A stretch of DNA of 64,000 bases, from contig NZ_OZ061318.1 in the NCBI RefSeq assembly GCF_964063345.1, positions 558,001-622,000 on the forward strand, in the 5' to 3' direction. The notes below the pieces were generated by a model, which did not search any database, was not told the DNA's origin, and was given only the letters and a program-made list of their open reading frames with translations. Made by a program: the position numbers and the translations under genes. This DNA is from Pseudomonas lini (GTDB lineage Bacteria; Pseudomonadota; Gammaproteobacteria; Pseudomonadales; Pseudomonadaceae). Below are positions 4,387 through 47,711 of the stretch, one piece after another. Position 1 is the first letter of the stretch. Each line of letters begins with the position of its first letter.

Positions 4387-5436
4387 ATGAACAACACTAA
4401 ACGCCCAACCATAGCCACTGTTGCCGAACACGCTGGCCTGAGTGTCGCCACCGTGGACCGCGTACTCAACGCCAGGGCTCCGGTCAACCCGGACACTGCC
4501 GAGCAGGTATTCCAGGCCGCCGAAGCGGTCGGTTATTTCGCCGCCCGGCTGATCGGTCAACGGATCCGCGAACGGCGTCCCACCTATCGTTTCGGCATCC
4601 TGCTGCTCGGTACCGCCCAGGCGTTTTATGGCAACGTGGCCGCCGCCATCACCGAGGCGGCGCAGCGTCAGGCCGGCGCCAACCTGAGCATTCAATTCGA
4701 GTACGTTTTCGATCGCACGCCCAGCGCGATCATTGCCCAGATCGAACAACTGGCGGTGCAGTGCGATGGTCTGGCGGTGGTCAGCTTCGCGCATCCGCTG
4801 ATCAATGCCGCCATCGCGCAGATCAGAGAGGCCGGCGTGCCGGTGATCGCCCTGCTGTCCGACATTCATGAGGCGGCGGATGAGCCTTACGTCGGCCAGG
4901 ATAATCACGAGGTCGGACGTACCATGGGTTGGCTGATGGCGCACACCTGTGGCGCCCGCAAAGGCTGTGTCGGGGTGTTGCTCGGCGGTCACCGTTTTCT
5001 TGGCCATCAGGCGCGGGTCGAGGGGTTGCGCAGCTACCTGGCGGAACGCGCCCCAGGGTTGCGGCTGCTGGAAGCGGTGATCAATCTGGACAACTGCGAC
5101 ATCACCGAAGAGGCGACGCTGGACCTGCTGGCGCGGCATGACGACTTGCGCGGTTTGTGCGTGGTCGGTGGTGGCGGCGACGGGGTCATCAATGCCCTGT
5201 CGCAACTGCCGAAGCAGCCGTCGCTGTGCTGCATTCTGCAGGAGTCGACCGAGCTGTCGCGACAAGCCCTGGATCAGGGATTGATCAGTCTGGTGATCGA
5301 CTCCCAGCCGCAATTACTGGCAACCGCGCTGGTCGATTTGCTGGTCGAACTACAGACCACGCCGGACTTCGATCCGATCCGGCATCGAATCCATATTCCA
5401 TTGCAGATCATCACCTCAGAGAACGCCCGACACTGA
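4387..5436 (+). CDS. LacI-family transcriptional regulator of the moc-like operon
   Basis: A 349-residue LacI/GalR protein. The N-terminal HTH reads 'TIATVAEHAGLSVATVDRVL', followed by the hinge helix and a periplasmic-binding-protein-like sensor domain ('FGILLLGTAQAFYGNVAAAI...'). Such regulators usually bind a sugar-like ligand, here plausibly the cyclitol or sugar handled by the neighbouring enzymes. It is divergent from the desaturase operon, and an AAGCGCTT palindrome sits in front of its own start. The ligand is not identifiable from sequence. Confidence 0.88.
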   Translation: MNNTKRPTIATVAEHAGLSVATVDRVLNARAPVNPDTAEQVFQAAEAVGYFAARLIGQRIRERRPTYRFGILLLGTAQAFYGNVAAAITEAAQRQAGANLSIQFEYVFDRTPSAIIAQIEQLAVQCDGLAVVSFAHPLINAAIAQIREAGVPVIALLSDIHEAADEPYVGQDNHEVGRTMGWLMAHTCGARKGCVGVLLGGHRFLGHQARVEGLRSYLAERAPGLRLLEAVINLDNCDITEEATLDLLARHDDLRGLCVVGGGGDGVINALSQLPKQPSLCCILQESTELSRQALDQGLISLVIDSQPQLLATALVDLLVELQTTPDFDPIRHRIHIPLQIITSENARH

Positions 5437-5476
5437 ACCTGTGAGTGGTACCGAGTTTCGCAGACACACTAAACCT

Positions 5477-5606
5477 GTGGCGAGGGAGCTTGCTCCCGCT
5501 GGGTTGCGCAGCAGCCCCAAAACCAATCAGTGAGTTCTTTCTGAAAAACTGCGGCAGCCTTATTGGGGCCGCTGCGCGACCCAGCGGGAGCAAGCTCCCT
5601 CGCCAC
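5477..5606. repeat. Paired REP-type repeat (GTGGCGAGGGAGCTTGCTCC family)
   Basis: GTGGCGAGGGAGCTTGCTCC at the left end is mirrored by its reverse complement at the right end, with a second GCGCAGCGGCCCC-like internal palindrome. Further copies of the same family occur at 36359, 57055 and 60999. The element fills the gap between the convergent LacI and sigma-54 activator genes. Confidence 0.85.
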
Positions 5607-5624
5607 AAGATCGTTTTCAGCCTG

Positions 5625-7649
5625 TCAGAGGTCGGGTTCCGAACGGAAAACATCGGCACTCAGCCCGAACCGATTCATCTTGTTGTACAACCCACCGCGA
5701 GAAACATTCAGCTGCCTCGCGGCCAGGCGGATGTTGCCACGGGTATCCCTGAGGGCCGCGATGATCGCATTCATTTCATGGGTGCCAAGGTCCAGGGCAA
5801 CTCGGGGTTCGGGCACACTTCCCGGCGCCGGCTGACGTAGCCTTTGCTTGATTTCAAGCGGTAGATCAGCTGGCTGGATCAGTTCGGTCACCGCCAGATT
5901 GGTCGCGCGCTCGATGGTGTTTTCCAATTCACGAACATTACCCGGCCAGCTGTAGGCCGAAAGAATATCCAACGCCTCTGGCGAGATGCCCTGCACCGAT
6001 TTGCGCAGCGACCGGGTGCAACGATCTAGAAAATGTCGCGCCAGCAATGGAACATCTTCCCGGCGCATCCGCAGCGGCGGAACCGTCAGGTTCAGCACAT
6101 TGAGCCGGTAGTAAAGATCCTCACGGAAGGCGCCATCGGCAACCGCCTGGCTCAGGTTACGGTGGGTGGCGGCGATGATGCGTACATCCACTTGCTGCGA
6201 TTTTTTCGCGCCCACGCGAGTCACCTCGCCTTCTTGCAGGACGCGCAGCAGGCTGACCTGGGCATCGAAAGACATGTCACCGATTTCGTCGAGGAAGATC
6301 GTTCCGCCATCGGCCAGTTCGAACTTCCCGGCAGAGCCTCCACGGGCCGATCCAGTGAAGGCGCCCTCGACATGACCAAACAATTCGCTCTGCACCAGAT
6401 CTCGCGGAATGGCCCCGCAATTGACGGCCACAAACGGACCGCTGCAACGATCGCTGGCGTTATGGATTGCCTGGGCAAACAGCTCCTTACCGGTACCGCT
6501 TTCACCCAGGATCAGCGTGGTCGAATCACTGCGACTAGCAATCCGCCCTAGGTGTAACGCGTCCTGTATGGCTCGCGAACTGCCTTGAATGGTCTCGAAG
6601 GTGTAGCTGGCTTGAGTGCCGATAATCCGCCGGGTAATTTCCCGGATGCGCCGGTTCTCGCGCAACGAAACAATGCGCCCACCCTGCTCCAGTGGGCACA
6701 CCGACACCAGACACGCCAAGAGGCTGCGATCATGCAACTCGAAGGTGCAATCCAGATCCCTTATCCCTTCATACGGCTGCCCTTCCCCGCCACGCAGCAG
6801 AATCTCATCGGTCAGTTCGCTCTGACCCAGACGCTGGAACGGGCTGCCCAACAGGTCCCGACCGACGCGGAACAATTGGCGGGCATAGCGGTTGAGCGCC
6901 TTGATGCAACCCCGCTCATCCAGCACCACAAGACCCTCGTTGAGCACTTCGAGGACGGTTTGTTGTTCCTCCAGCAGCGCTTGCAGCGCCATCTGTCGCG
7001 AGACCGCTTCGGCCGCCGCCTGGACGGTGCCCAGCGTATGGAAATGAAACCAGCCCGGTTCGGCGGTCAAGGTCAGCATGGCCAGCGTCCTGCCCTGCGC
7101 ATCCCTGATCGGCGCGGCGGCACAATGCATGCGCCGGCGACGCAGGCCGATCCCGAAATTCTCCTCGGCCAGCACATACACCAATCGATCTTCGGCAATC
7201 GCCAGCCCCGTGCAGTTGGTGCCCTGCACCGACTCCAGTAGCCGACTGCCCACAGGCGTGAGGTCCAGGCCACAGAAATACAGGGTCGTGCCTGCGGCAT
7301 CGGTCAGATTGATATGGCCCCTGGGGTTGTAAGCCAGCAATCCCTTCATGACCTCCGCCGCCGCGGCGATCAAGGCGCGATTGGCCGCCAGCGTTGCGGT
7401 CAGAACGGCCGGGGCGACGAACCGGTATTCGCCATCCTCAGGATCGAGGCCGGCACTGACGCTGCGCAGCCAGGAGTCCCAGATAACCTGCCGGACGCCG
7501 GCCGGTCGCTCGATGCGCCCTTTCAGGCAAGCCAGCCAAGCCTGGTCCAGCTCGGCGATCGGCCCTTCGTTCAACGATGCAGGCCCTAGCGCGGTGATGT
7601 AATCGAGGTCTTGCGCGCTGAAGGCTGTCAGCTGTGGATTCACCATCAT
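5625..7649 (-). CDS. Sigma-54-dependent activator, AcoR type (GAF-PAS-AAA+-Fis HTH)
   Basis: About 674 residues from ATG 7649, or 689 from an ATG at 7694. The N-terminal third is GAF-like and is followed by a PAS segment ('EGLVVLDERGCIKALNRYAR'). The AAA+ domain has Walker A 'GESGTGKELF', the sigma-54-contacting loop as GAFTGS (not the usual GAFTGA), and Walker B 'GGTIFLDEIGDM'. It ends in a Fis-type HTH ('GNIRLAARQLNVSRGGLYNKM'). I prefer the inner start because the outer ATG lies inside a palindrome pair that looks like this protein's own binding site. It is divergent from the dehydrogenase operon, which has a -24/-12 promoter, so it is almost certainly that operon's activator. The inducer is unknown. 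Confidence 0.88.
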   Translation of the reverse strand: MMVNPQLTAFSAQDLDYITALGPASLNEGPIAELDQAWLACLKGRIERPAGVRQVIWDSWLRSVSAGLDPEDGEYRFVAPAVLTATLAANRALIAAAAEVMKGLLAYNPRGHINLTDAAGTTLYFCGLDLTPVGSRLLESVQGTNCTGLAIAEDRLVYVLAEENFGIGLRRRRMHCAAAPIRDAQGRTLAMLTLTAEPGWFHFHTLGTVQAAAEAVSRQMALQALLEEQQTVLEVLNEGLVVLDERGCIKALNRYARQLFRVGRDLLGSPFQRLGQSELTDEILLRGGEGQPYEGIRDLDCTFELHDRSLLACLVSVCPLEQGGRIVSLRENRRIREITRRIIGTQASYTFETIQGSSRAIQDALHLGRIASRSDSTTLILGESGTGKELFAQAIHNASDRCSGPFVAVNCGAIPRDLVQSELFGHVEGAFTGSARGGSAGKFELADGGTIFLDEIGDMSFDAQVSLLRVLQEGEVTRVGAKKSQQVDVRIIAATHRNLSQAVADGAFREDLYYRLNVLNLTVPPLRMRREDVPLLARHFLDRCTRSLRKSVQGISPEALDILSAYSWPGNVRELENTIERATNLAVTELIQPADLPLEIKQRLRQPAPGSVPEPRVALDLGTHEMNAIIAALRDTRGNIRLAARQLNVSRGGLYNKMNRFGLSADVFRSEPDL

Positions 7650-7675
7650 CGATACGCTTCTATGTTCACGTTTTA

Positions 7676-7697
7676 GACATGTCAGTGTAGACATGTC
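7676..7697. promoter_or_regulatory. Candidate upstream activator sequence for the sigma-54 activator
   Basis: Two copies of the perfect palindrome GACATGTC stand at 7676-7683 and 7690-7697, 14 bp apart, so the pair is itself symmetric. They lie about 70-90 bp upstream of the -24/-12 promoter, a normal distance for an enhancer. A further ACACA-N8-TGTGT inverted repeat follows around 7709-7725. Confidence 0.55.
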
Positions 7698-7760
7698 ATG
7701 CGAATGAACACACTTTTCAATGTGTATTAATTAACTCCTTAAATATCAATGACTTAAATA

Positions 7761-7777
7761 TTGGCACAGCCCTTGCT
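7761..7777 (+). promoter_or_regulatory. Sigma-54 (-24/-12) promoter
   Basis: TTGGCAC-N5-TTGCT matches the RpoN consensus TGGCAC-N5-TTGCW at every conserved base, with the GG and GC doublets correctly spaced. It sits 70 bp ahead of the dehydrogenase start codon. Confidence 0.85.
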
Positions 7778-7846
7778 CCCTTGATTGACGCCAGCGAGGA
7801 CATTCCTGCTGTGAGTCATTGAACAACAATAAAAGGGAGTCATTTC

Positions 7847-8869
7847 ATGAGTACGTCCAAGATCATCCGCCTGGGTCTCATCGGTGCCGGCCGCATGGGC
7901 AGCTTTCACGGCCTGACTGCCGCCAGACACATTCCCGGCGCCTGCCTGGCCGCCATCGCCGACCCTACACCCGGTCAAGCCGCCCGCCTGGCCGCAGAGT
8001 TGGGTGTGCAACGGGTCTATACCGATCCACAGCAACTGCTCGATGACCCGGAAATCGACGCTGTCTTGATCGCCGCCCCCGCCCGCAGCCATGCCGAACT
8101 GGTGATCAGTGCGGCCCGCGCCGGCAAAGGCGTGTTTTGTGAAAAACCCATGGCCATCACCCTCGACGAGGCCGACCGCGCCATCGCCGCAGCTGCCGAT
8201 GCGCGCGTGCCGCTACAGGTCGGCTTCAACCGCCGCTTTGCCAAAAGCTTCAGGGCTGCCCATCTGGACGTGGTCGCCGGCCGTATCGGTACGCCGCAAC
8301 TGCTGCGCTCGCTGACCCGCGACCCGGCGTTGAACAATCCGGCGGCCTCACCGCAGTGGGTGATTTTCCTCGAAACCCTGATCCATGACTTCGATACCCT
8401 GCGCTACCTCAATCCCGGCGCAGAAGCGGTCGAAGTTTTTGTCATGGCCGATGCCCTGATCGCACCGGACTACAAGGCCAAGGGCTTCCTCGACACCGCA
8501 GTGGTCACGATCCGTTTCGACAACGGTGCCATCGCGACGGCCGAGGCCAATTTCCAGGCCGTGTATGGCTACGATGTTCGAGGGGAAGTGTTCGGCAGCG
8601 CCGGCATGCTGACCATGGGCAGCCTCAATGACTCTGACCTGGTGCGCTATCTGGCCAATGGCATCCAGGCCGACACCCAACGCATGGACACCGACCTGCT
8701 GCGTGATGCCTATGTGGCCGAGCTCAATCACTTTGTCGACTGCCTGCGCACCGGCGGAAAACCACTCGCCAGCGGTGAAGATGCCCGGGCGGCACTGGCC
8801 ATTGCCCGCGCGTGTATCGAGTCCTTTCAGCAGGGCAAACCTGTGCGCGTGCAAGGAGCCCATTCATGA
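7847..8869 (+). CDS. Gfo/Idh/MocA-family NAD(P)-dependent dehydrogenase (inositol dehydrogenase-like)
   Basis: A 340-residue oxidoreductase. The Rossmann motif 'LGLIGAGRMGSFHG' is near the start, the family signature 'EKPMAITLDEAD' lies at ~residue 103, and a C-terminal alpha/beta substrate domain contains 'LIHDFDTLRY', which supplies the catalytic His/Asp region. GGGAG precedes ATG 7847. It resembles myo/scyllo-inositol 2-dehydrogenases (IolG, MocA), which oxidise a ring hydroxyl to a ketone. It is first in a three-gene operon under a sigma-54 promoter, and its stop overlaps the next start (ATGA). Family is certain; cyclitol specificity is likely but unproven. Confidence 0.88.
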   Translation: MSTSKIIRLGLIGAGRMGSFHGLTAARHIPGACLAAIADPTPGQAARLAAELGVQRVYTDPQQLLDDPEIDAVLIAAPARSHAELVISAARAGKGVFCEKPMAITLDEADRAIAAAADARVPLQVGFNRRFAKSFRAAHLDVVAGRIGTPQLLRSLTRDPALNNPAASPQWVIFLETLIHDFDTLRYLNPGAEAVEVFVMADALIAPDYKAKGFLDTAVVTIRFDNGAIATAEANFQAVYGYDVRGEVFGSAGMLTMGSLNDSDLVRYLANGIQADTQRMDTDLLRDAYVAELNHFVDCLRTGGKPLASGEDARAALAIARACIESFQQGKPVRVQGAHS

Positions 8870-9654
8870 GTTTCACACCGTTCAAACTGGCGATCAGTGC
8901 CGAGATGGTCTTCCTCGACTTGCCGTTCACAGAGCGCGTCAAACGCATCCACGCGCTGGGTTTTAGCGCGGAACTCTGGGACTGGACGAAGAAAGACATT
9001 GCGGCCCTTGTCGCCACGGGCGCTGACTTCACCTCGATGACCGGCTACATCTCGGGCAACCTGACCGACCCCGAAGACATCCAGCACCTGCTCGACAGCG
9101 CACGAGAATCGCTGGCCGTCGCTGCACAACTGAATTGCCCGAGCCTCAACCTGCATGGCACCGGTTTGGGTGACCAAGGCCTGCCGGTCAAACCCGTGGC
9201 CCACACCACCGGACGCATGTGGCTGAGCGCCTGTAAGACCCTGGAAAAAATCGCTCGCCTGGGAGAAGACGCAGGCCGGGTATTCTTGCTGGAAAACCTC
9301 AATACCGAGGTGGACCACCCCGGCACGCCCTTCGCTCGCGCCGACGATACCTTGGCGCTGATCGAGGCCGTGGGCAGCCCTCATTTGAAGATGAACCTGG
9401 ACCTTTACCATGCCCAGATCGGCGAAGGAAACCTGATCGAACTGATCCAGCGCGCCGGCAGCGCCATCGGGGAAATCCAGGTCGCTGATGTCCCCGGCCG
9501 CATGGAACCCGGCACCGGCGAAATCCATTATCCGGCCATTGCCAAAGCCTTGTTCCGCATGGGATACACCGGTGTCGTCGGGCTGGAGGGCTGGGCCAGC
9601 GGCGACAGCGAAGCGGCACTTGAACGCTTTCGGCAAGCCTTCACGCTGGATTGA
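8866..9654 (+). CDS. Hydroxypyruvate-isomerase/IolE-like TIM-barrel isomerase (MocC-like)
   Basis: The start ATG 8866 overlaps the upstream stop by ATGA, giving 262 residues. Features shared with hydroxypyruvate isomerases and relatives include 'FLLENLNTEVDHPG' with a metal-ligand Glu, 'MNLDLYHAQIGEGNL' with Asp and His, and 'VADVPGRMEPGTGEI' with the substrate-binding Arg/Glu. The protein probably acts on the keto product of the preceding dehydrogenase. It is the second TIM-barrel isomerase in the region and is not a close copy of the one at 580-1428. It could be a true hydroxypyruvate isomerase, but no glyoxylate carboligase or tartronate genes are near. Confidence 0.82.
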   Translation: MSFTPFKLAISAEMVFLDLPFTERVKRIHALGFSAELWDWTKKDIAALVATGADFTSMTGYISGNLTDPEDIQHLLDSARESLAVAAQLNCPSLNLHGTGLGDQGLPVKPVAHTTGRMWLSACKTLEKIARLGEDAGRVFLLENLNTEVDHPGTPFARADDTLALIEAVGSPHLKMNLDLYHAQIGEGNLIELIQRAGSAIGEIQVADVPGRMEPGTGEIHYPAIAKALFRMGYTGVVGLEGWASGDSEAALERFRQAFTLD

Positions 9655-9754
9655 TGACGCTGGCGCTCTCGGCGGGTTTGATTCAGAGAGCGCCAGAAAC
9701 CCTCACGTTTGATCTTGATGAATTTCAACTCATAACAAAAAAGGAAAAACCATC

Positions 9755-10681
9755 ATGCGTCGCTGCACACTGCTTTTTGCCACGCTGTTATTCCTCTTCA
9801 GCCAATGGGCCGCCGCCAGCTATCGCATCGGTGTCAGCATTGCCAGGGTTGACGACAACTTCATGACCTATGTGCGCAGCGGCCTGGAAGATGCCGCCAA
9901 GAAGGAGAACGTCCAGATCCAGTTCGAGGATGCCCAAGGCGATGTGGTTCGCCAGCTCAATCAGATTCAGGGCTTTCTCGGCCAGAAGGTGGATGCCGTC
10001 ATCGTCCTGCCCGTGGACACCGCCGCCACCGCCAACATGACGCGCGCCGCCGTCGAAGCGAAAATACCGCTGGTCTACGTCAACCGCCATCCGGACGAAC
10101 GCGTCTTGCCCAAAGGCGTAGTCACGGTGGCGTCCAACGACGTTGAGGCCGGGCAACTGCAAATGCGCTACCTGGCTGACAAAATGGCGGGCAAAGGCAA
10201 CATCGCAATCATCATGGGCGACCTGGCGCAAAACTCCACGCACGACCGCACCGAAGGCGTCAAACAGGTGCTCAAGGACTATCCCGGGATCAAGATCGTC
10301 GAACAACAAAGTGCCGAGTGGCAGCGCAATAAAGGGATGGACCTGACCAGCAACTGGCTGCTGGCCGGCACCGGCTTCGATGCCATCGTTGCCAACAATG
10401 ACGAGATGGCCATCGGCGCCGCCATGGCACTGCAGCAAGCTGGCAAAGCCAAGGGCGAAATTGCAATTGTCGGCATCGACGGCCTGCCTGACGGCCTCGC
10501 GGCCATCAAGCGCGGAATGCTCGTAGCCTCGGTCTTTCAAGACCCCAAAGCGCAGGCGACCAGCGCGCTGCAAGCGGCCATCAAAATGATCAAAGGGGAG
10601 CCGGTCGAAACGGATGTCTGGGTGCCCTTTCAGCTGATCACGCCGGAGCAGGTAGCGGTGTTTGAGCAGCATTATAAATAG
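9755..10681 (+). CDS. Periplasmic sugar/cyclitol-binding protein (RbsB/MocB-like)
   Basis: A 308-residue type-I periplasmic binding protein with a cleavable signal peptide (M-R-R, hydrophobic run, 'WAAAS'). Conserved features of the ribose/inositol group include 'DNFMTYVRSGLEDAAKK', the 'DAVIVLPVDTAAT' strand and 'VGIDGLPDGLAAIKRG' near the end. AAGGA precedes the ATG. It is last in the sigma-54 operon after a 100-bp gap. No permease or ATPase gene accompanies it in this window, so it must share an importer encoded elsewhere or act as a chemoreceptor ligand sensor. MocB of rhizobial rhizopine use is such a protein. Confidence 0.88.
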   Translation: MRRCTLLFATLLFLFSQWAAASYRIGVSIARVDDNFMTYVRSGLEDAAKKENVQIQFEDAQGDVVRQLNQIQGFLGQKVDAVIVLPVDTAATANMTRAAVEAKIPLVYVNRHPDERVLPKGVVTVASNDVEAGQLQMRYLADKMAGKGNIAIIMGDLAQNSTHDRTEGVKQVLKDYPGIKIVEQQSAEWQRNKGMDLTSNWLLAGTGFDAIVANNDEMAIGAAMALQQAGKAKGEIAIVGIDGLPDGLAAIKRGMLVASVFQDPKAQATSALQAAIKMIKGEPVETDVWVPFQLITPEQVAVFEQHYK

Positions 10682-10881
10682 CGTCAAACGGTTGCGGCCT
10701 ACTCCTCAAAGCGACCCGTGGCATCACGATGTTTGGCGCACGGATACGCGCCCTTGCCAACCAGGCACCGTGCAGATACTGTCAGCTTCATGAATCAACC
10801 ACGCATTGCCTCGACCACCACAACCACGACCGCCCAGGGCGGGTCGTGAGAGGTGTCGTGAGCCAATAACGCACGAACTTC

Positions 10882-10915
10882 AAAGGCCCGCCAGTGATGG
10901 AGAGGGCCTTTTCTT
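10882..10915 (+). terminator. Rho-independent terminator of the sigma-54 operon
   Basis: An AAAGGCCC / GGGCCTTTT stem is followed by CTTTT. It lies 200 bp past the binding-protein stop; a GC-rich ACGACC-CGCC/GGCG-GGTCGT hairpin comes just before it. Confidence 0.65.
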
Positions 10916-10955
10916 TTGCCCTTGTGTCACTGGTCCAAACGCAAGGAAAAGCACT

Positions 10956-11474
10956 ATGCATGCACTGTTGATTCTCGATATGCAGGTTGGATTGTTTCAT
11001 GGCCCGGATAAACCCTGGGCTGGCGAAGCGCTGTTAAATACCTTGAATAGCCTGCTGAGCAAAGCCCGGAAGGCAGACGCGCCAGTTTTCCTGGCTCGCC
11101 ATGTGGGTCCGCCTGGCTCGCCTATCGAGCCTGCGAGCCCGTTGACACAACTGGTGCAGGAACTGCTGCTACAAGGCGACGAAGTGATCTTCGAAAAAAG
11201 CCGACCCAACGCTTTCGCCATGACTGATCTGGCCGATCGGTTAAAAGCTTGTGGATCTCAAGGTGTGGTTATTGCCGGAATGAAGACCCAGTATTGTGTC
11301 GACAGCACCTGTCGCGCCGCACGAGATCTTGGGTTCGATGCAGTGCTGATCGCCGACGGTCATACCTGCACCTACACCCCTGCGTTGACGGCCGAAAATA
11401 TCGTCGCTCATCACAATGCAACCCTGGCGGGCCCATTCTGTCGTGTCGTTCACGCTGAGAACTGGCACTTCTGA
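10956..11474 (+). CDS. Isochorismatase-family cysteine hydrolase
   Basis: 172 residues from ATG 10956, with AAGGA about 8 bases upstream. The triad of the family is visible: Asp in 'LILDMQVG', Lys in 'VIFEKSRPNAF' and Cys in 'MKTQYCVDSTCRAARDLGF'. The cis-peptide region 'VIAGMKTQYCV' is typical. Such enzymes hydrolyse amides (nicotinamide, N-carbamoyl compounds) or the vinyl ether of isochorismate. No siderophore or pyrimidine genes adjoin, so the substrate is open. Confidence 0.88.
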   Translation: MHALLILDMQVGLFHGPDKPWAGEALLNTLNSLLSKARKADAPVFLARHVGPPGSPIEPASPLTQLVQELLLQGDEVIFEKSRPNAFAMTDLADRLKACGSQGVVIAGMKTQYCVDSTCRAARDLGFDAVLIADGHTCTYTPALTAENIVAHHNATLAGPFCRVVHAENWHF

Positions 11475-41414: not shown

Positions 41415-41615
41415 GCAGAACCCATCGTTCATACTGAAGAGGAGGAGTGCGGACTCGTTACCCGTGGTACGGTTGAGTTCACTGTTGATGATCAAATTAG
41501 TGTGCTGAATGCCGGGGATGGGTATTATTTTTCGACGACGTTGCCGCATCTGTTTAGGAATATTGGAGCGGATGAGGTGGAGATAATTAGTGCGGATACT
41601 CCGGCGAATTTTTGA
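41415..41615 (+). pseudogene. 3' fragment of a PuuR-like cupin regulator gene
   Basis: An open frame without start encodes 66 residues, including 'EECGLVTRGTVEFTVDDQIS', 'VLNAGDGYYFSTTLP' and 'IISADTPANF'. These match, with a few substitutions, the C-terminal cupin of the intact regulator at 47163-47711, which is on the opposite strand. The HTH half is missing. The nucleotide match is clearly diverged, so the fragment is an old paralogue or a relic of recombination, not a recent copy. Confidence 0.85.
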
Positions 41616-41650
41616 TGAAGTAAAGCGGTAGGTGGCGTATCGAACACTCG

Positions 41651-42256: not shown

Positions 42257-44017
42257 TCAGTAAACCTGCACCCGCCACAACTCCCGCAACGAAGAACCCG
42301 CCGACATCGGCAACCGCCCATGCAACGTCCGATAGTTATCAATCAGCACCAGATCACCCTCACTCCACTCATGGGCAATCATGCACTCCGGGTCATAAAC
42401 CAGCGCATTGACCTGTTCCAGCAACGCCTGTTGAGCCTGCTCATCATGATCCTGCACAGCCTGGCTCAGCGTCTGCAGTGTCGAGTCAGTGCCCTCTTGG
42501 TAACGCAGGATAAGTTCGCCGCTGCGGGGGTGATGATCCACCAGGCTGTACATGCGCGGCGAGCCGCCGAAATAGGTCATTTTGGTGTAGTAAGTGATGT
42601 TCACATCCTGCCATTGTCGGGCGACTTGCTGCCCGACTTTGCGCAGTACGTTTCGGCTGTCAACGACGGTGGTCTGGCCCTCGCCCGGCTGCGGCGCGGT
42701 CTTGCAATACAGCATGAATTTGCTGGCGCAGAATTTCGGGTTGCGTTGAACCTGTGCATCGCTGTCGGGCAGCATGTTCAGGTCCCAGTGCAACGGCGTT
42801 TTCTCCAGCGAGTGCACCACGCCTTGGGGTTTGTCCGCAGGTTTGACCACGTGCACGGCGCCGAAGGCCCATTCGTACAGCGTGCCGAAGCGTTCGCAGC
42901 TGCGAGCAAAACTGTCCTGATCGTCGAAGCGACAGCCCTTGAGGCAGACGAAACCAAAGGTTTCCACCAGTGCTTCGAGCAGGCCGGTGGACAGTCGTTC
43001 GAAACCCAGCCCCAACGGGTCTCGCACCACCAGGCCAAAGAGCGGAAGCTTTTGCAGTTCGTATTCGAAGCCTTGCGCCTGTGGGTTTTCTGTTTGGTGG
43101 TAGAGCCACGGCCGCCCGTCATAGGTGACCAACACGTGGTGGTCGAGGTCGACCTGGGCGCGGGTGCGAAGGGTTTGGCTGCCATCGAGGCTGCACACCG
43201 GCACGGCATGCCAAGGGCTGTAAACACGGGTCAGCCCCTCGGCCAATCCGAAGGTGAATTTGGGCCCGGCATTGCTGTACTGGTGGACCGACAAGCGAAT
43301 GTCATCGCCGAAGAAACGGTCCACTGCCGCATTCAAGGCCTGCCCGCGATACATCATTTGGTAGGCTTTGAAATTGATTTGTTGCAGGTACTCGTCCTCG
43401 CTCTGCCCGTCTTCACGGCACAGACGCAGGTCGTTGTAGAGGTGACTGCAGAGGTGGTCATGCGCCTGGCTGAGGGATTCATCTTCGCGGCTCTGCTCGA
43501 TCAGATCCCCAAGGTTTTTCCAGGGCAGACGGGCCTGCTTGATCAGGCTGGCGCGAACCGACTCGGCACTTTGGGCCTGTGGGAACAGGTCTTCCATGCT
43601 GACCCACTGAATCGTGTGGGTGGTGCACAGTTCACGCAACGACCGGTTGTAGGCGACGCGAACGTCGTCGGCAACGCCAACGATGTCATTGAAGGTCGTG
43701 CCGTCACTGAGGATCGACACCACACAACCCGGTGCGTGCAACGCGGCGATGGTCTGGCCGAGCTGGTCGAGGCGTTCGATGGCGATGACCTCGCCGTAGT
43801 CCGGCAGCACGCCGAATGTCTGGTCAATGGCGTTTGGTGACTTGCAGGGAAAACCTGGCAGTACCAAACGCACCGGCAGGCTCTGATCGAAGCAATGCCC
43901 CAGGCGTAGCGCGAGATGCGCCCTGCCTTGTGCTTCGAAATAATCATCCGTGCCTTTGAGCAAATAACCCGCGAGCAAATCGCTGACGGCAGCGATCCAT
44001 GCGTCTCTATGTTCCAT
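42257..44017 (-). CDS. Isonitrile synthase (PvcA/DIT1) fused to a TauD/PvcB-type Fe(II)/2-oxoglutarate oxygenase
   Basis: 586 residues; AAGGA lies upstream of ATG 44017. Residues ~10-300 are an isonitrile synthase domain: 'LVLPGFPCKSPN' (conserved P.FP.KSP motif), 'SILSDGTTFND' and 'SVHQYSNAGPKFTFGL'. From ~residue 330 a TauD/PvcB oxygenase follows, with the iron ligands H-x-D in 'PLHWDLNM' and the distal His in 'YRTLHGRLPM', plus an Arg near the end for 2-oxoglutarate. In Pvc/Isn pathways PvcA converts Tyr or Trp to an isonitrile and PvcB desaturates or decarboxylates it; here the two steps are joined in one chain. Last gene of a three-gene operon. Confidence 0.88.
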   Translation of the reverse strand: MEHRDAWIAAVSDLLAGYLLKGTDDYFEAQGRAHLALRLGHCFDQSLPVRLVLPGFPCKSPNAIDQTFGVLPDYGEVIAIERLDQLGQTIAALHAPGCVVSILSDGTTFNDIVGVADDVRVAYNRSLRELCTTHTIQWVSMEDLFPQAQSAESVRASLIKQARLPWKNLGDLIEQSREDESLSQAHDHLCSHLYNDLRLCREDGQSEDEYLQQINFKAYQMMYRGQALNAAVDRFFGDDIRLSVHQYSNAGPKFTFGLAEGLTRVYSPWHAVPVCSLDGSQTLRTRAQVDLDHHVLVTYDGRPWLYHQTENPQAQGFEYELQKLPLFGLVVRDPLGLGFERLSTGLLEALVETFGFVCLKGCRFDDQDSFARSCERFGTLYEWAFGAVHVVKPADKPQGVVHSLEKTPLHWDLNMLPDSDAQVQRNPKFCASKFMLYCKTAPQPGEGQTTVVDSRNVLRKVGQQVARQWQDVNITYYTKMTYFGGSPRMYSLVDHHPRSGELILRYQEGTDSTLQTLSQAVQDHDEQAQQALLEQVNALVYDPECMIAHEWSEGDLVLIDNYRTLHGRLPMSAGSSLRELWRVQVY

Positions 44018-44044
44018 AGAACAATTTCCTTGAGAGTGTGTGTA

Positions 44045-44764
44045 TCAATAGGATTTAACGGTGTCGCCAAGCTCGGTGAACGCATGCGCTGTAGCGCAGA
44101 CTTGCTGCAGAATGCGCAGTAATCCGGCCGGCTGTTCGCAGCAGAAGTTCGGGGCCTGGTCCTGCAATGCAGGGGTCAGGCCATACCCCCAAGTGACCGC
44201 CGCCGAGTACATGCCTGCAGCACGGGCGGTCTTCAGATCGATCTCGGTGTCACCGACGAACAAACAGCGTTGCGGATCAACCGACAATCGCCGGGCAGCT
44301 TCCCATGCCACCTCCGGCTGAGGTTTGAGCGCCCTGCCCGCGCGATGCCCCAGAATCGTCCCGAAGGTATTCTGTGGAAGCAGCGCATCGGCTACTTGCA
44401 GGGCCATTTCCTCGGTCTTGTTGGTCACGATTGCCAGCGGCACTTTTAACTGGCGACAGCCTTCGAGCAAGGCAAGCACACCGCTGAATGGCCGGGAAAA
44501 TTGAACAAGGTTGTTTTGATACAACGCCACATAGCGCTGGTGCAGGGCGACCGTATCGGCTATGCCAAACTGCGTGGCAACCTGCTCGATCATCGCCGTG
44601 ACCCCGCCGCCGATATAACCCCGCACGGTTTGCGCTGTCTGCGCCGGGCAACCGTGTTCGAGCATCACCTGGTTCAGGCACCAGGTGATGTCAGGCAAGG
44701 TGTCGACCAGGGTCCCATCCAGATCGAAGAGTACGGCTTCGACCCGCAACCGAGACGCCATCAT
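44045..44764 (-). CDS. HAD-superfamily phosphatase (phosphoglycolate phosphatase-like) in the isonitrile operon
   Basis: 239 residues from ATG 44764, whose first bases overlap the stop of the isonitrile synthase gene (ATGA). HAD motif I is 'VLFDLDGTLVDTLPD', motif II 'LAIVTNKTEE', the Lys region 'LKPQPEVAWEAARRL' and motif IV 'LFVGDTEIDLKTARAAG'. It resembles Gph/PPase type enzymes. Because PvcA-type enzymes take the isonitrile carbon from ribulose 5-phosphate, the phosphatase might process a sugar-phosphate by-product or a phosphorylated intermediate; this is inference. Tight coupling shows it belongs to the pathway. Confidence 0.87.
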   Translation of the reverse strand: MMASRLRVEAVLFDLDGTLVDTLPDITWCLNQVMLEHGCPAQTAQTVRGYIGGGVTAMIEQVATQFGIADTVALHQRYVALYQNNLVQFSRPFSGVLALLEGCRQLKVPLAIVTNKTEEMALQVADALLPQNTFGTILGHRAGRALKPQPEVAWEAARRLSVDPQRCLFVGDTEIDLKTARAAGMYSAAVTWGYGLTPALQDQAPNFCCEQPAGLLRILQQVCATAHAFTELGDTVKSY

Positions 44765-45756
44765 TGAGCACTGGCGTAGTGACAAGGACGCCCCTTGCGG
44801 AACACCAGGCGGTGGTAGCGCTCATCGACATTGCTGCGTTTTTCGAGGGTGACCACACCCCGTCGATTGATGGCCACCGAATGCCAGGGCGTACGCCACA
44901 GGTCACTGGTTGGCACCAACCGGATACCGATCTTCGTCGACACCGCCAGTTGCGGGTGAATCGACAGGCGCAGGCAATGTGGGTAGCGCGCCTCTAACAG
45001 AGCACTCCAGGCTTCACTGCGCTGGATCACCCGCTGCGACGCCGGTTTGGCGACTTTCTTCACCGCATTAAGGCTCATGCCGGCGAAGACTTTGAGGCCC
45101 GAGTAATCCTCGGAAAGAAAGCGATGGATGCCGCAGTACATCAACATCATGTGCGGATCATCCTTGAAACGCTGCTGCAACAAGACCAATGACTGACCGT
45201 GCTCGATCATCATCTCCTCACGCATGGCGTCCAGACAATCAAGCGGAGGATAGGCATCCCGGAGGTCGAAATGGGCAAACGTGCCGGGATAGTGCTGTTC
45301 GGCGTAGTCCTGGATAGCGTCGGTGTAGGCTTTGACGTCTGCATCGGGAACATGCACCAAGTCAGAGAACACATAGCCATCGGAGCAGATATGAATCAGC
45401 GCTCCCGGTGCGTAGATCTCCTGGATCTCCTTGCACAGGCGATATAACTCGTCGATTGCGTGATGTTCAGCAAGATCAGGCAGATGGCTGAGGGTTTTCT
45501 TGCGGCTAGGCGATTTGCCGGGAAAGGCTGGCAAGACCATTTCGACCTTGCGACCACTCTCGACCGCCTGCATTACCTTGGTCAGATGGGGTTCCAGCAC
45601 CTGCAACGAAAGTTCGTGATCTTGCCCTGGTGCAAGGTTACGACGGCGGAACAGGCATTCGAGGATTTGCTGGGCAATGTTCATGTGTGGAGTGTTCTGA
45701 TGCTCGTGCACCAGCTGACCGCACACCTGTTGAGCAACGGTGTTTGAACCTTGCAT
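44761..45756 (-). CDS. Isonitrile (isocyanide) synthase, PvcA/DIT1 family
   Basis: 331 residues from ATG 45756 (AAGGG seven bases upstream). The family motifs are present: 'MVLPAFPGKSPSRKKT', 'IHICSDGYVFSDLVHV', and the C-terminal 'LRLSIHPQLAVSTKIGI' with 'WRTPWHSVAINRRG'. The enzyme should convert the amino group of an aromatic amino acid to an isonitrile using ribulose 5-phosphate. It leads the operon, and a GGCCA-T5-TGGCC palindrome lies just upstream (45784-45798). Having a second PvcA domain in the same operon is unusual and suggests two substrates or one specialised copy. Confidence 0.87.
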   Translation of the reverse strand: MQGSNTVAQQVCGQLVHEHQNTPHMNIAQQILECLFRRRNLAPGQDHELSLQVLEPHLTKVMQAVESGRKVEMVLPAFPGKSPSRKKTLSHLPDLAEHHAIDELYRLCKEIQEIYAPGALIHICSDGYVFSDLVHVPDADVKAYTDAIQDYAEQHYPGTFAHFDLRDAYPPLDCLDAMREEMMIEHGQSLVLLQQRFKDDPHMMLMYCGIHRFLSEDYSGLKVFAGMSLNAVKKVAKPASQRVIQRSEAWSALLEARYPHCLRLSIHPQLAVSTKIGIRLVPTSDLWRTPWHSVAINRRGVVTLEKRSNVDERYHRLVFRKGRPCHYASAQ

Positions 45757-45853
45757 AGACAATCCCTTGTATGGTGAATAACGGCCATTTTTTGGCCATC
45801 AGCAGATATTCCTTACCTGCGGGCGGCTAAATTCCTACAAGTCGCGAGGGCTG

Positions 45854-46393
45854 TCAATCGTGGCGATCCGGAATATTGCGGCCTGCACGAGCTCCTCCGG
45901 GTCTGCCGTCGGTGAAGCAATCAATCCTGTCTAGCGCTTTCACCATCGGCACACAAGCCAGCTGAAGCCCGGAGGGCGAATGGTAAATAGCAGGTTTGTC
46001 ACCCACGAAACCGCAGCGCCGGTAAAAGTCAGCGGCGTTCAACGTGGCGTCCAGGTTGACTTCCCTCAGCCCCAAATCCCGCGCCAGGCATTCAAGGTAG
46101 TCCAGGACTCTCAAGCCAATGCCTTGTTGCATAAAGCTTGGGAGCACGAAGATCGCGCCGATTTCGCTCCTCTCCAGATCAAGCATTCCTGTCGCCACTG
46201 GCTCACCCTGAATACAGCCCAGATAAAAGTGTTTATCCATCAGGTCGCTATACCCGTCCTTGGCTGATCCTGCCGTCCAGGCCAGCATTTGCTCCGTGGT
46301 ATAGGCTCCGATGCATTGATGCCGTATCGCTTGAAGGCGAATGTCGAACGCCGTTTGGGCATCGCTGTGCGTGGCGCGTCTAATCTCGAACAT
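45854..46393 (-). CDS. GNAT-family N-acetyltransferase
   Basis: 179 residues. The N-terminal 'MFEIRRATHSDAQTAFDIRL' is a common GNAT start, motif A is 'IFVLPSFMQQGIGLRVLDYL' (Q-Q-G-I-G), and 'VNLDATLNAADFYRRCGFVG' is motif B. The acceptor is unknown; it could be linked to the isonitrile operon that follows on the same strand after 97 bp, or be independent. The last ~20 residues are Arg/Gly-rich and may be an extension. Confidence 0.85.
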   Translation of the reverse strand: MFEIRRATHSDAQTAFDIRLQAIRHQCIGAYTTEQMLAWTAGSAKDGYSDLMDKHFYLGCIQGEPVATGMLDLERSEIGAIFVLPSFMQQGIGLRVLDYLECLARDLGLREVNLDATLNAADFYRRCGFVGDKPAIYHSPSGLQLACVPMVKALDRIDCFTDGRPGGARAGRNIPDRHD

Positions 46394-47141: not shown

Positions 47142-47162
47142 GTTTGTTGTTCGCTATCGATA

Positions 47163-47711
47163 TCAGAAGTTCGCCGGGGTGTTGGCGCTGATGATTTCAG
47201 CCTCATCCGCCCCAATATTGCGAAACCGATGCGGCAGCGTCGTCGGAAAGTAATACCCATCCCCGGCATTCAGCACACTAATCTGACCATCAACGGTGAG
47301 CTCAACCGTCCCACGAGTAACCAGCCCACACTCCTCCCCTTCCGAGTGCACAATCGGCTCTTCCCCCGAACTCGCCCCAGGCGCGTATTGCTCGCGCAAA
47401 AGTCGCATCTGCCGACTCGGTACCGAAGCGCCAATCAGCAGTAACCGCAGCCCATGACGCCCGAGATCTGGTTGTTCATTGGCGCGGAACACGTATTGAT
47501 GCTCACGCGGCGGTTGGTCGAAGGTGAAGAAGTCCGCCAAGGACATGGGGATGCCTTCGAGCAGTTTTTTCAGGGAGCTGACAGAGGGGCTGACGCGATT
47601 CTGTTCGATCAGGGAAATGGTGGCATTGGTGACGCCGCTACGCCGGGCCAGCTCGCGCTGGGACAGTTTGTAGCTTTCGCGTACTAATTTGAGTCGTGAG
47701 CCCGTGTCCAT
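47163..47711 (-). CDS. PuuR-like XRE-cupin regulator of putrescine use
   Basis: 182 residues, the size of E. coli PuuR (185). The HTH is 'LSQRELARRSGVTNATISLI' with 'EQNRVSPSVSSLKKLL'; a cupin follows ('SEGEECGLVTRGTVELTVDG', ending 'SANTPANF', as PuuR ends '..SAHTPTTF'). PuuR represses puu genes and responds to putrescine. Its location beside puuBCA supports the same role. A diverged fragment of a paralogue sits at 41415-41615. Confidence 0.87.
   Translation of the reverse strand: MDTGSRLKLVRESYKLSQRELARRSGVTNATISLIEQNRVSPSVSSLKKLLEGIPMSLADFFTFDQPPREHQYVFRANEQPDLGRHGLRLLLIGASVPSRQMRLLREQYAPGASSGEEPIVHSEGEECGLVTRGTVELTVDGQISVLNAGDGYYFPTTLPHRFRNIGADEAEIISANTPANF

Follow-up and report, generated by a model that had tools for sequence, protein, structure and literature searches.

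A conserved three-gene module pairing two diverged isocyanide synthases with a phosphatase and a fused oxygenase in Pseudomonas

In the present study, a three-gene operon was characterised on the reverse strand of a 64,000-nucleotide stretch of the Pseudomonas lini genome (hereafter, the window). The operon and its upstream block comprise the following features.

45757..45857, minus strand: conserved upstream block running from a TTGACA-like stretch to the start codon, a probable promoter region (alignment with 20 loci)
45802..45820, minus strand: imperfect dyad GCAGGTAAGGAATATCTGC within the upstream block, a possible regulator site (alignment with 20 loci)
44761..45756, minus strand: PvcA1, a stand-alone isocyanide (isonitrile) synthase of the classical-like clade, 331 aa (PF05141, 254.5 bits, scored on the 333-aa frame)
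44045..44764, minus strand: HAD-IA phosphatase (HAD), phosphoglycolate-phosphatase-like, 239 aa (HAD_2, 116 bits, scored on the 246-aa frame)
42257..44017, minus strand: PvcA2-TauD fusion, 586 aa (PF05141, 187.5 bits; TauD, 117.2 bits)
43130..43894, minus strand: second synthase domain (PvcA2), residues 42-296 of the fusion
42269..42988, minus strand: TauD-type Fe(II)/2-oxoglutarate oxygenase domain, residues 344-583 of the fusion (TauD, 117.2 bits)

A sequence-only reading of this DNA had described an operon of the isonitrile type in which one of two synthase domains is fused to its oxygenase, in a layout different from that of pvcABCD and isnAB. The profile matches bear this description out, as two PF05141 matches and one TauD match fall at the positions given above in the order PvcA1, HAD, PvcA2-TauD fusion. 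Both synthase scores (254.5 bits for PvcA1 on the 333-aa frame and 187.5 bits for the fusion) are above the PF05141 cut-off of 26.4, and a profile search of the genome found this family in two places only, namely PvcA1 and the fusion. PvcA1 begins with an ATG at 45756, a frame also opened by a TTG at 45762, and this ATG is kept in all 20 Pseudomonas loci aligned, two of which are identical copies. The first ATG of HAD (44764) lies on the PvcA1 stop in an ATGA overlap, and 27 bases separate HAD from the fusion.

The gene order PvcA1, HAD, fusion was complete in 42 of the 42 loci tested with tblastn. These comprise the 20 aligned Pseudomonas loci, 18 further Pseudomonas loci and four loci from one other genus, and correspond to about 35 genomes, given six likely same-genome pairs and two identical stretches of one assembly. 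The latter are identical 21,758-base operon stretches of P. frederiksbergensis 36C6 (L006 and L007), which lie in opposite orientation on one joined contig; this doubling is perhaps an assembly artefact. The fusion of the four loci outside Pseudomonas (L078) pairs with the Dickeya dadantii fusion P0010. Among 398 Pseudomonas genomes drawn, 44 match the fusion at E <= 0.001; 19 of the 44, the window's own included, carry a full-length fusion of at least 70% identity, and a second synthase adjoins it in all 19. The remaining matches are other synthase genes (6/44) or weak matches to the oxygenase domain only (19/44). Beyond the genus, nine of 392 genomes in the family draw match at E <= 1e-60, four of them with uninterrupted, Dickeya-like fusions, and seven of 394 genomes in the order draw had matches, none with such a fusion. 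Four of 369 genomes in the class draw and four of 398 in the phylum draw match at E <= 1e-30, the window's own included in each, and in these two draws no fusion in one open frame was found outside the window's genome. At least 24 of 70 fusion clusters (P0039 left out of the typing) apparently share a contig with a PvcA1 homologue, judged by a proxy drawn from the 120 listed of 1949 PvcA1 matches.

Silent changes dominate the divergence in every part of the operon. Against three strains, L013 (P. fluorescens FW300-N2E3, an environmental strain), L016 and L020, PvcA1 gave a dN/dS of 0.067-0.074, HAD 0.168-0.231, the second synthase domain 0.087-0.107 and the TauD domain 0.042-0.063; across seven Pseudomonas loci, the corresponding ranges were 0.067-0.128, 0.168-0.375, 0.087-0.254 and 0.033-0.152. 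HAD is thus the fastest-evolving part of the operon. Against the Dickeya-like L078, dS is saturated in both synthases. The low dN/dS in all parts, together with a gene order that recurs in every locus tested, is more than chance would give, and the three-gene set is confirmed as a real, conserved module.

The flanking genes vary between lineages, while a stretch of about 100 bases just upstream of PvcA1 stays conserved between two different genomic sites; the operon therefore appears to move together with a promoter of its own. The exact degenerate pattern of the dyad occurs once in the genome, as would be expected anyway for so specific a pattern. Two sets of neighbours were considered as members and rejected: the GNAT gene upstream (45854-46393), the family of which is present, at no fixed distance, in 10 of 21 flanks, and the PuuR-type regulator, NUDIX and abhydrolase genes, as the flanks differ between loci. 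A 200-base inverted repeat, 82% identical, flanks the operon region (41417-41616 and 47162-47361); it represents the 3' end of a PuuR-type regulator gene, repeated downstream beside an apparently truncated alpha/beta hydrolase gene.

Phylogeny of both PvcA domains, which the sequence-only reading had proposed as a check, placed the two synthases in separate clades, with about 27% identity between them, and this tree rules out a recent tandem duplication. The closest PDB chains to PvcA1 are PvcA 3e59 and the chains 9dh4/9dhm (titled PIsnA). Against the PvcA equivalog model NF045653 (L-tyrosine isonitrile synthase), PvcA1 scored 217.3 and the fusion 71.1 bits, both below the cut-off of 600. Loss of key active-site residues, named beforehand as one of two observations that would speak against the reading, was checked by sequence: each domain keeps 28 of the 29 family-universal residues, which leaves the reading standing but not wholly cleared. 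The exception in PvcA1 is Ser86 for Asn. In PvcA2 it is Gln66 for Lys, found in the window and in all 20 aligned Pseudomonas loci, and since this Lys is near-universal, PvcA2 may have lost its activity or changed it. At the sites where PvcA2 deviates, PvcA1 agrees with the classical enzymes, and PvcA2 retains other conserved basic residues that might bind a sugar phosphate.

The fusion joins PF05141 and PF02668 in one protein, in agreement with the ICS-DOX definition, and its structural model comprises two folded domains (pLDDT 90.9, pTM 0.90). The nearest PDB structures to the TauD domain are those of PIsnB and PvcB, with PIsnB 7tcl as the best match. H410, D412 and H566, which form the metal triad, are invariant across 23 aligned sequences, as are R578, R582 and W383; of these, R582 corresponds to R265 and W383 to W74 of 7tcl, residues that hold the substrate carboxylate in PIsnB. 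At the proposed selectivity positions (Leu and Cys, or Lys/Arg and Asn/His), the fusion has Leu416, of the PvcB type, and Gln507, of neither type.

HAD carries the motifs DLDGT, VTNK, KPQP and GDTEID. It scored 133.8 bits against TIGR01449 (bacterial phosphoglycolate phosphatase), below the cut-off of 180, and 149.3 bits against NF009695, below the cut-off of 225. In all 42 loci it is a separate gene between the two synthase genes. Among 71 fusion homologues, seven have a HAD fused on and 13 have an N-terminal PTP-like domain with an HC..NYR loop; the phosphatase survey covers a part of the relatives, with many, such as the Shewanella-type fusions (about 610 aa), outside it. All 20 phosphatase-like fusions sit in front of PvcA2-TauD, and never on PvcA1. 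A plasmid of Burkholderia stagnalis carries a PTP-like gene (homology in two frames) between the two synthase genes, beside a transporter. The PTP-like domain is related to the DUF442 structure 3gxg (3.6e-17) and weakly to Blh. PF22741 was above cut-off in one of the six PTP-type fusions scanned (P0044), and the N-terminal domain of a PTP-type fusion was unmatched among the best 50 Foldseek matches; the kinship to DUF442 rests on sequence. Four residues separate Cys and Arg in the PTP-like loop and five in the textbook PTP loop, and the phosphatase activity of this domain is therefore putative only. The tight coupling of a phosphatase, as claimed beforehand, is well seen in the ATGA overlap, the 42 loci, and the fused HAD or PTP-like stand-in of relatives.

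On a core-enzyme tree of 14 HAD and 14 PTP rows, the phosphatase label changes four times, and at least three of these changes are forced by well-supported branches. In this tree, P0004 took its HAD label from its kin L035-L041, that of P0001 and P0035 came from the same-contig proxy, and nine rows of uncertain phosphatase type were excluded from the count. Thus, unrelated phosphatase-like partners have come to join one core on more than one occasion, and the simplest reading is that a phosphorylated species would need dephosphorylation; the repeated exchange fits a requirement of this kind for some Ru5P-derived species. Of eight regions with other PF05141 genes, searched over their whole length, seven (L056, L082, L083, L086, L087, L088 and L092) had no phosphatase match and one (L085) had. 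In L085 (7408-10118), a distant HAD (25% identity) comes after a PvcA-TauD pair in classical order, a hint that the phosphatase association could extend past the fusion family. L088, from another Pseudomonas, encodes a distant 618-aa synthase-oxygenase fusion (7642-9498; 25-28% identity) outside the family of the present fusion, and neither a second synthase in the flank examined nor a phosphatase match was found there. The short contig L084 gave no phosphatase match either; it holds an unusual cluster (4583-11306), where one of two PF05141-type proteins occupies an 862-aa frame and a TauD match lies in a frame of 697 aa.

Herein, we propose that the operon encodes a self-contained pathway to an amino-acid-derived isonitrile, in which the phosphatase would act on a species derived from ribulose-5-phosphate (Ru5P), a reading to which we give about an even chance. 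First, PvcA1 would form an alpha-isocyano acid from an aromatic L-amino acid and Ru5P. Second, the PvcA2 domain might catalyse a related reaction, with another or a modified acceptor. Third, the TauD domain would desaturate, or decarboxylate and desaturate, an alpha-isocyano acid, as do PvcB and PIsnB. The phosphatase may strip phosphate from a Ru5P-derived species made by a synthase, either a by-product or an intermediate. We infer the substrates, the products, the order of steps, the activity of both synthase domains and the place of the phosphatase in the pathway from several lines of evidence: the match of PvcA1 to the classical enzymes and the 28 of 29 residues kept in each synthase domain; an oxygenase nearest PIsnB and PvcB, in which the metal triad is intact, as are the Arg and Trp for the substrate carboxylate; a phosphatase gene between the synthase genes in 42/42 loci, a fused HAD in 7/71 and a PTP-like domain in 13/71 homologues; four changes of phosphatase label on the tree, at least three of them forced; a phosphatase match in only 1/8 regions with other PF05141 genes; and the report of Ru5P as the known carbon donor of the isocyanide synthase family (PMC7949033). 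Against the proposal stand Gln66 in PvcA2, the score of only 71 bits for the fusion against the PvcA equivalog model, the faster evolution of HAD relative to the other parts, and the PTP-like loop, one residue shorter than the textbook loop.

In a rival account, synthesis might be split by an obligatory dephosphorylation, with PvcA1 making a phosphorylated adduct of amino acid and pentulose, the phosphatase acting on it and PvcA2-TauD finishing; in variants of this scheme, the PvcA2-TauD product keeps part of the sugar, or the isonitrile is formed from the dephosphorylated adduct. The retention together of two anciently separate synthase clades points in this direction, as do the phosphatase gene placed between the synthases, or fused before PvcA2-TauD and never to PvcA1 (20/20 fused cases), and the deviation of PvcA2, without one Lys, at sites common to PvcA1 and the classical enzymes. 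However, PvcA2 retains other conserved basic residues, possible sugar-phosphate binders, and in classical enzymes one synthase without a phosphatase suffices for the isonitrile. We hold this scheme to be unlikely. The same standing applies to a further reading, a two-stage pathway in which two diverged synthases and a required dephosphorylation would lead to an unseen product class, with part of the Ru5P skeleton or a second isonitrile. If this were true, the dephosphorylation step would have left its mark in the way unrelated phosphatases were recruited and fused again and again.

The phosphatase might instead be a housekeeping remover of an inhibitory phosphorylated Ru5P fragment, with PvcA2 a synthase for another amino acid. 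HAD is phosphoglycolate-phosphatase-like and evolves fastest, and an unrelated domain has several times taken its place, which would suit a clean-up enzyme of loose specificity. But the classical clusters examined do without a phosphatase (7/8 regions), and fusion to the enzyme suggests a role beyond clean-up. We take by-product clearing alone to be improbable. Least probable by far, an N-formyl or other non-isonitrile product would follow the formyl tyrosine reported for yeast Dit1 of the same family (PMC7345447), a precedent set against a 2026 paper describing a Dit1-type isonitrile as a stable product (PMC13005658), the classical PvcA residues retained by PvcA1 and an oxygenase nearest the isonitrile oxygenases.

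The proposed pathway to an isonitrile bears on a gap in the available text of the isonitrile papers cited here, where the fate of the Ru5P remainder after one carbon goes to the isonitrile is unstated. A phosphatase kept beside or fused to a synthase, and several times replaced by an unrelated one, is natural evidence for phosphate removal from a pathway species and hints at an unrecognised phosphate-removing step in isonitrile chemistry. Judged from its sequence, this compact three-gene set of soil Pseudomonas probably makes an isonitrile, and a cassette of three genes with an apparent promoter of its own might give access to a new isonitrile of plant-associated bacteria.

Among known systems, Pseudomonas aeruginosa PvcA/PvcB and Photorhabdus-type PIsnA/PIsnB match the individual domains best, by structure as well as by sequence. 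Both pairs consist of separate proteins with a single synthase, and the 17 kb surrounding four classical pvcA-type genes gave no phosphatase match. The fusion has precedents in bacteria and fungi: V. cholerae IsnAB and the fungal XanB and IcsB are reported as two-domain isocyanide synthase-dioxygenases that combine, as in the window, a synthase and a TauD-type oxygenase in one protein (PMC5974471); likened by description only, they differ in that a second synthase or phosphatase partner is not mentioned in the available text of that paper. The hapalindole-type I1, I2 and I3 likewise provide two synthases and one oxygenase per cluster (PMC4236562). However, I1 and I2 are reported to be at least 78% identical, with AmbI2 called redundant, whereas the pair in the window, at 27%, falls short of that identity and divides between separate clades; a phosphatase is unmentioned in the available text of that paper. 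Thus, the arrangement read from the sequence as unusual is present, but neither the fusion alone (PMC5974471) nor the doubled synthase alone (PMC4236562), as described there, is new.

The nearest precedent is P. corrugata CFBP 5454, in which DIT1_1, gph_2 and DIT1_2 are reported to be activated via PcoR and RfiA with logFC 3.15-3.57; these quorum-sensing regulators co-activate lipopeptide and alginate genes (PMC5890197). As here, the adjacent, co-regulated trio comprises two DIT1/PvcA proteins, one bearing an added CAS-like domain, and a phosphoglycolate-phosphatase-like gene, and it was published as a regulated gene list, with no pathway proposed in the available text (PMC5890197). The module is present in the related strain P. 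corrugata DSM 7228 (L020), and from this and from the gene types described we infer that the CFBP 5454 trio is of the window's operon type, which is thus already in print, as far as the available text goes, without a function. The window's genome contains one AHL synthase gene and three LuxR autoinducer-binding domain matches, so that, by analogy, a quorum control like that of P. corrugata is possible. Among the matches listed in a literature search that covered few subscription papers, this gene list was the only one to set a phosphatase gene beside genes of the isonitrile synthase type, and what looks new in the present operon type is an exchangeable, sometimes fused phosphatase that accompanies two anciently separate synthases.
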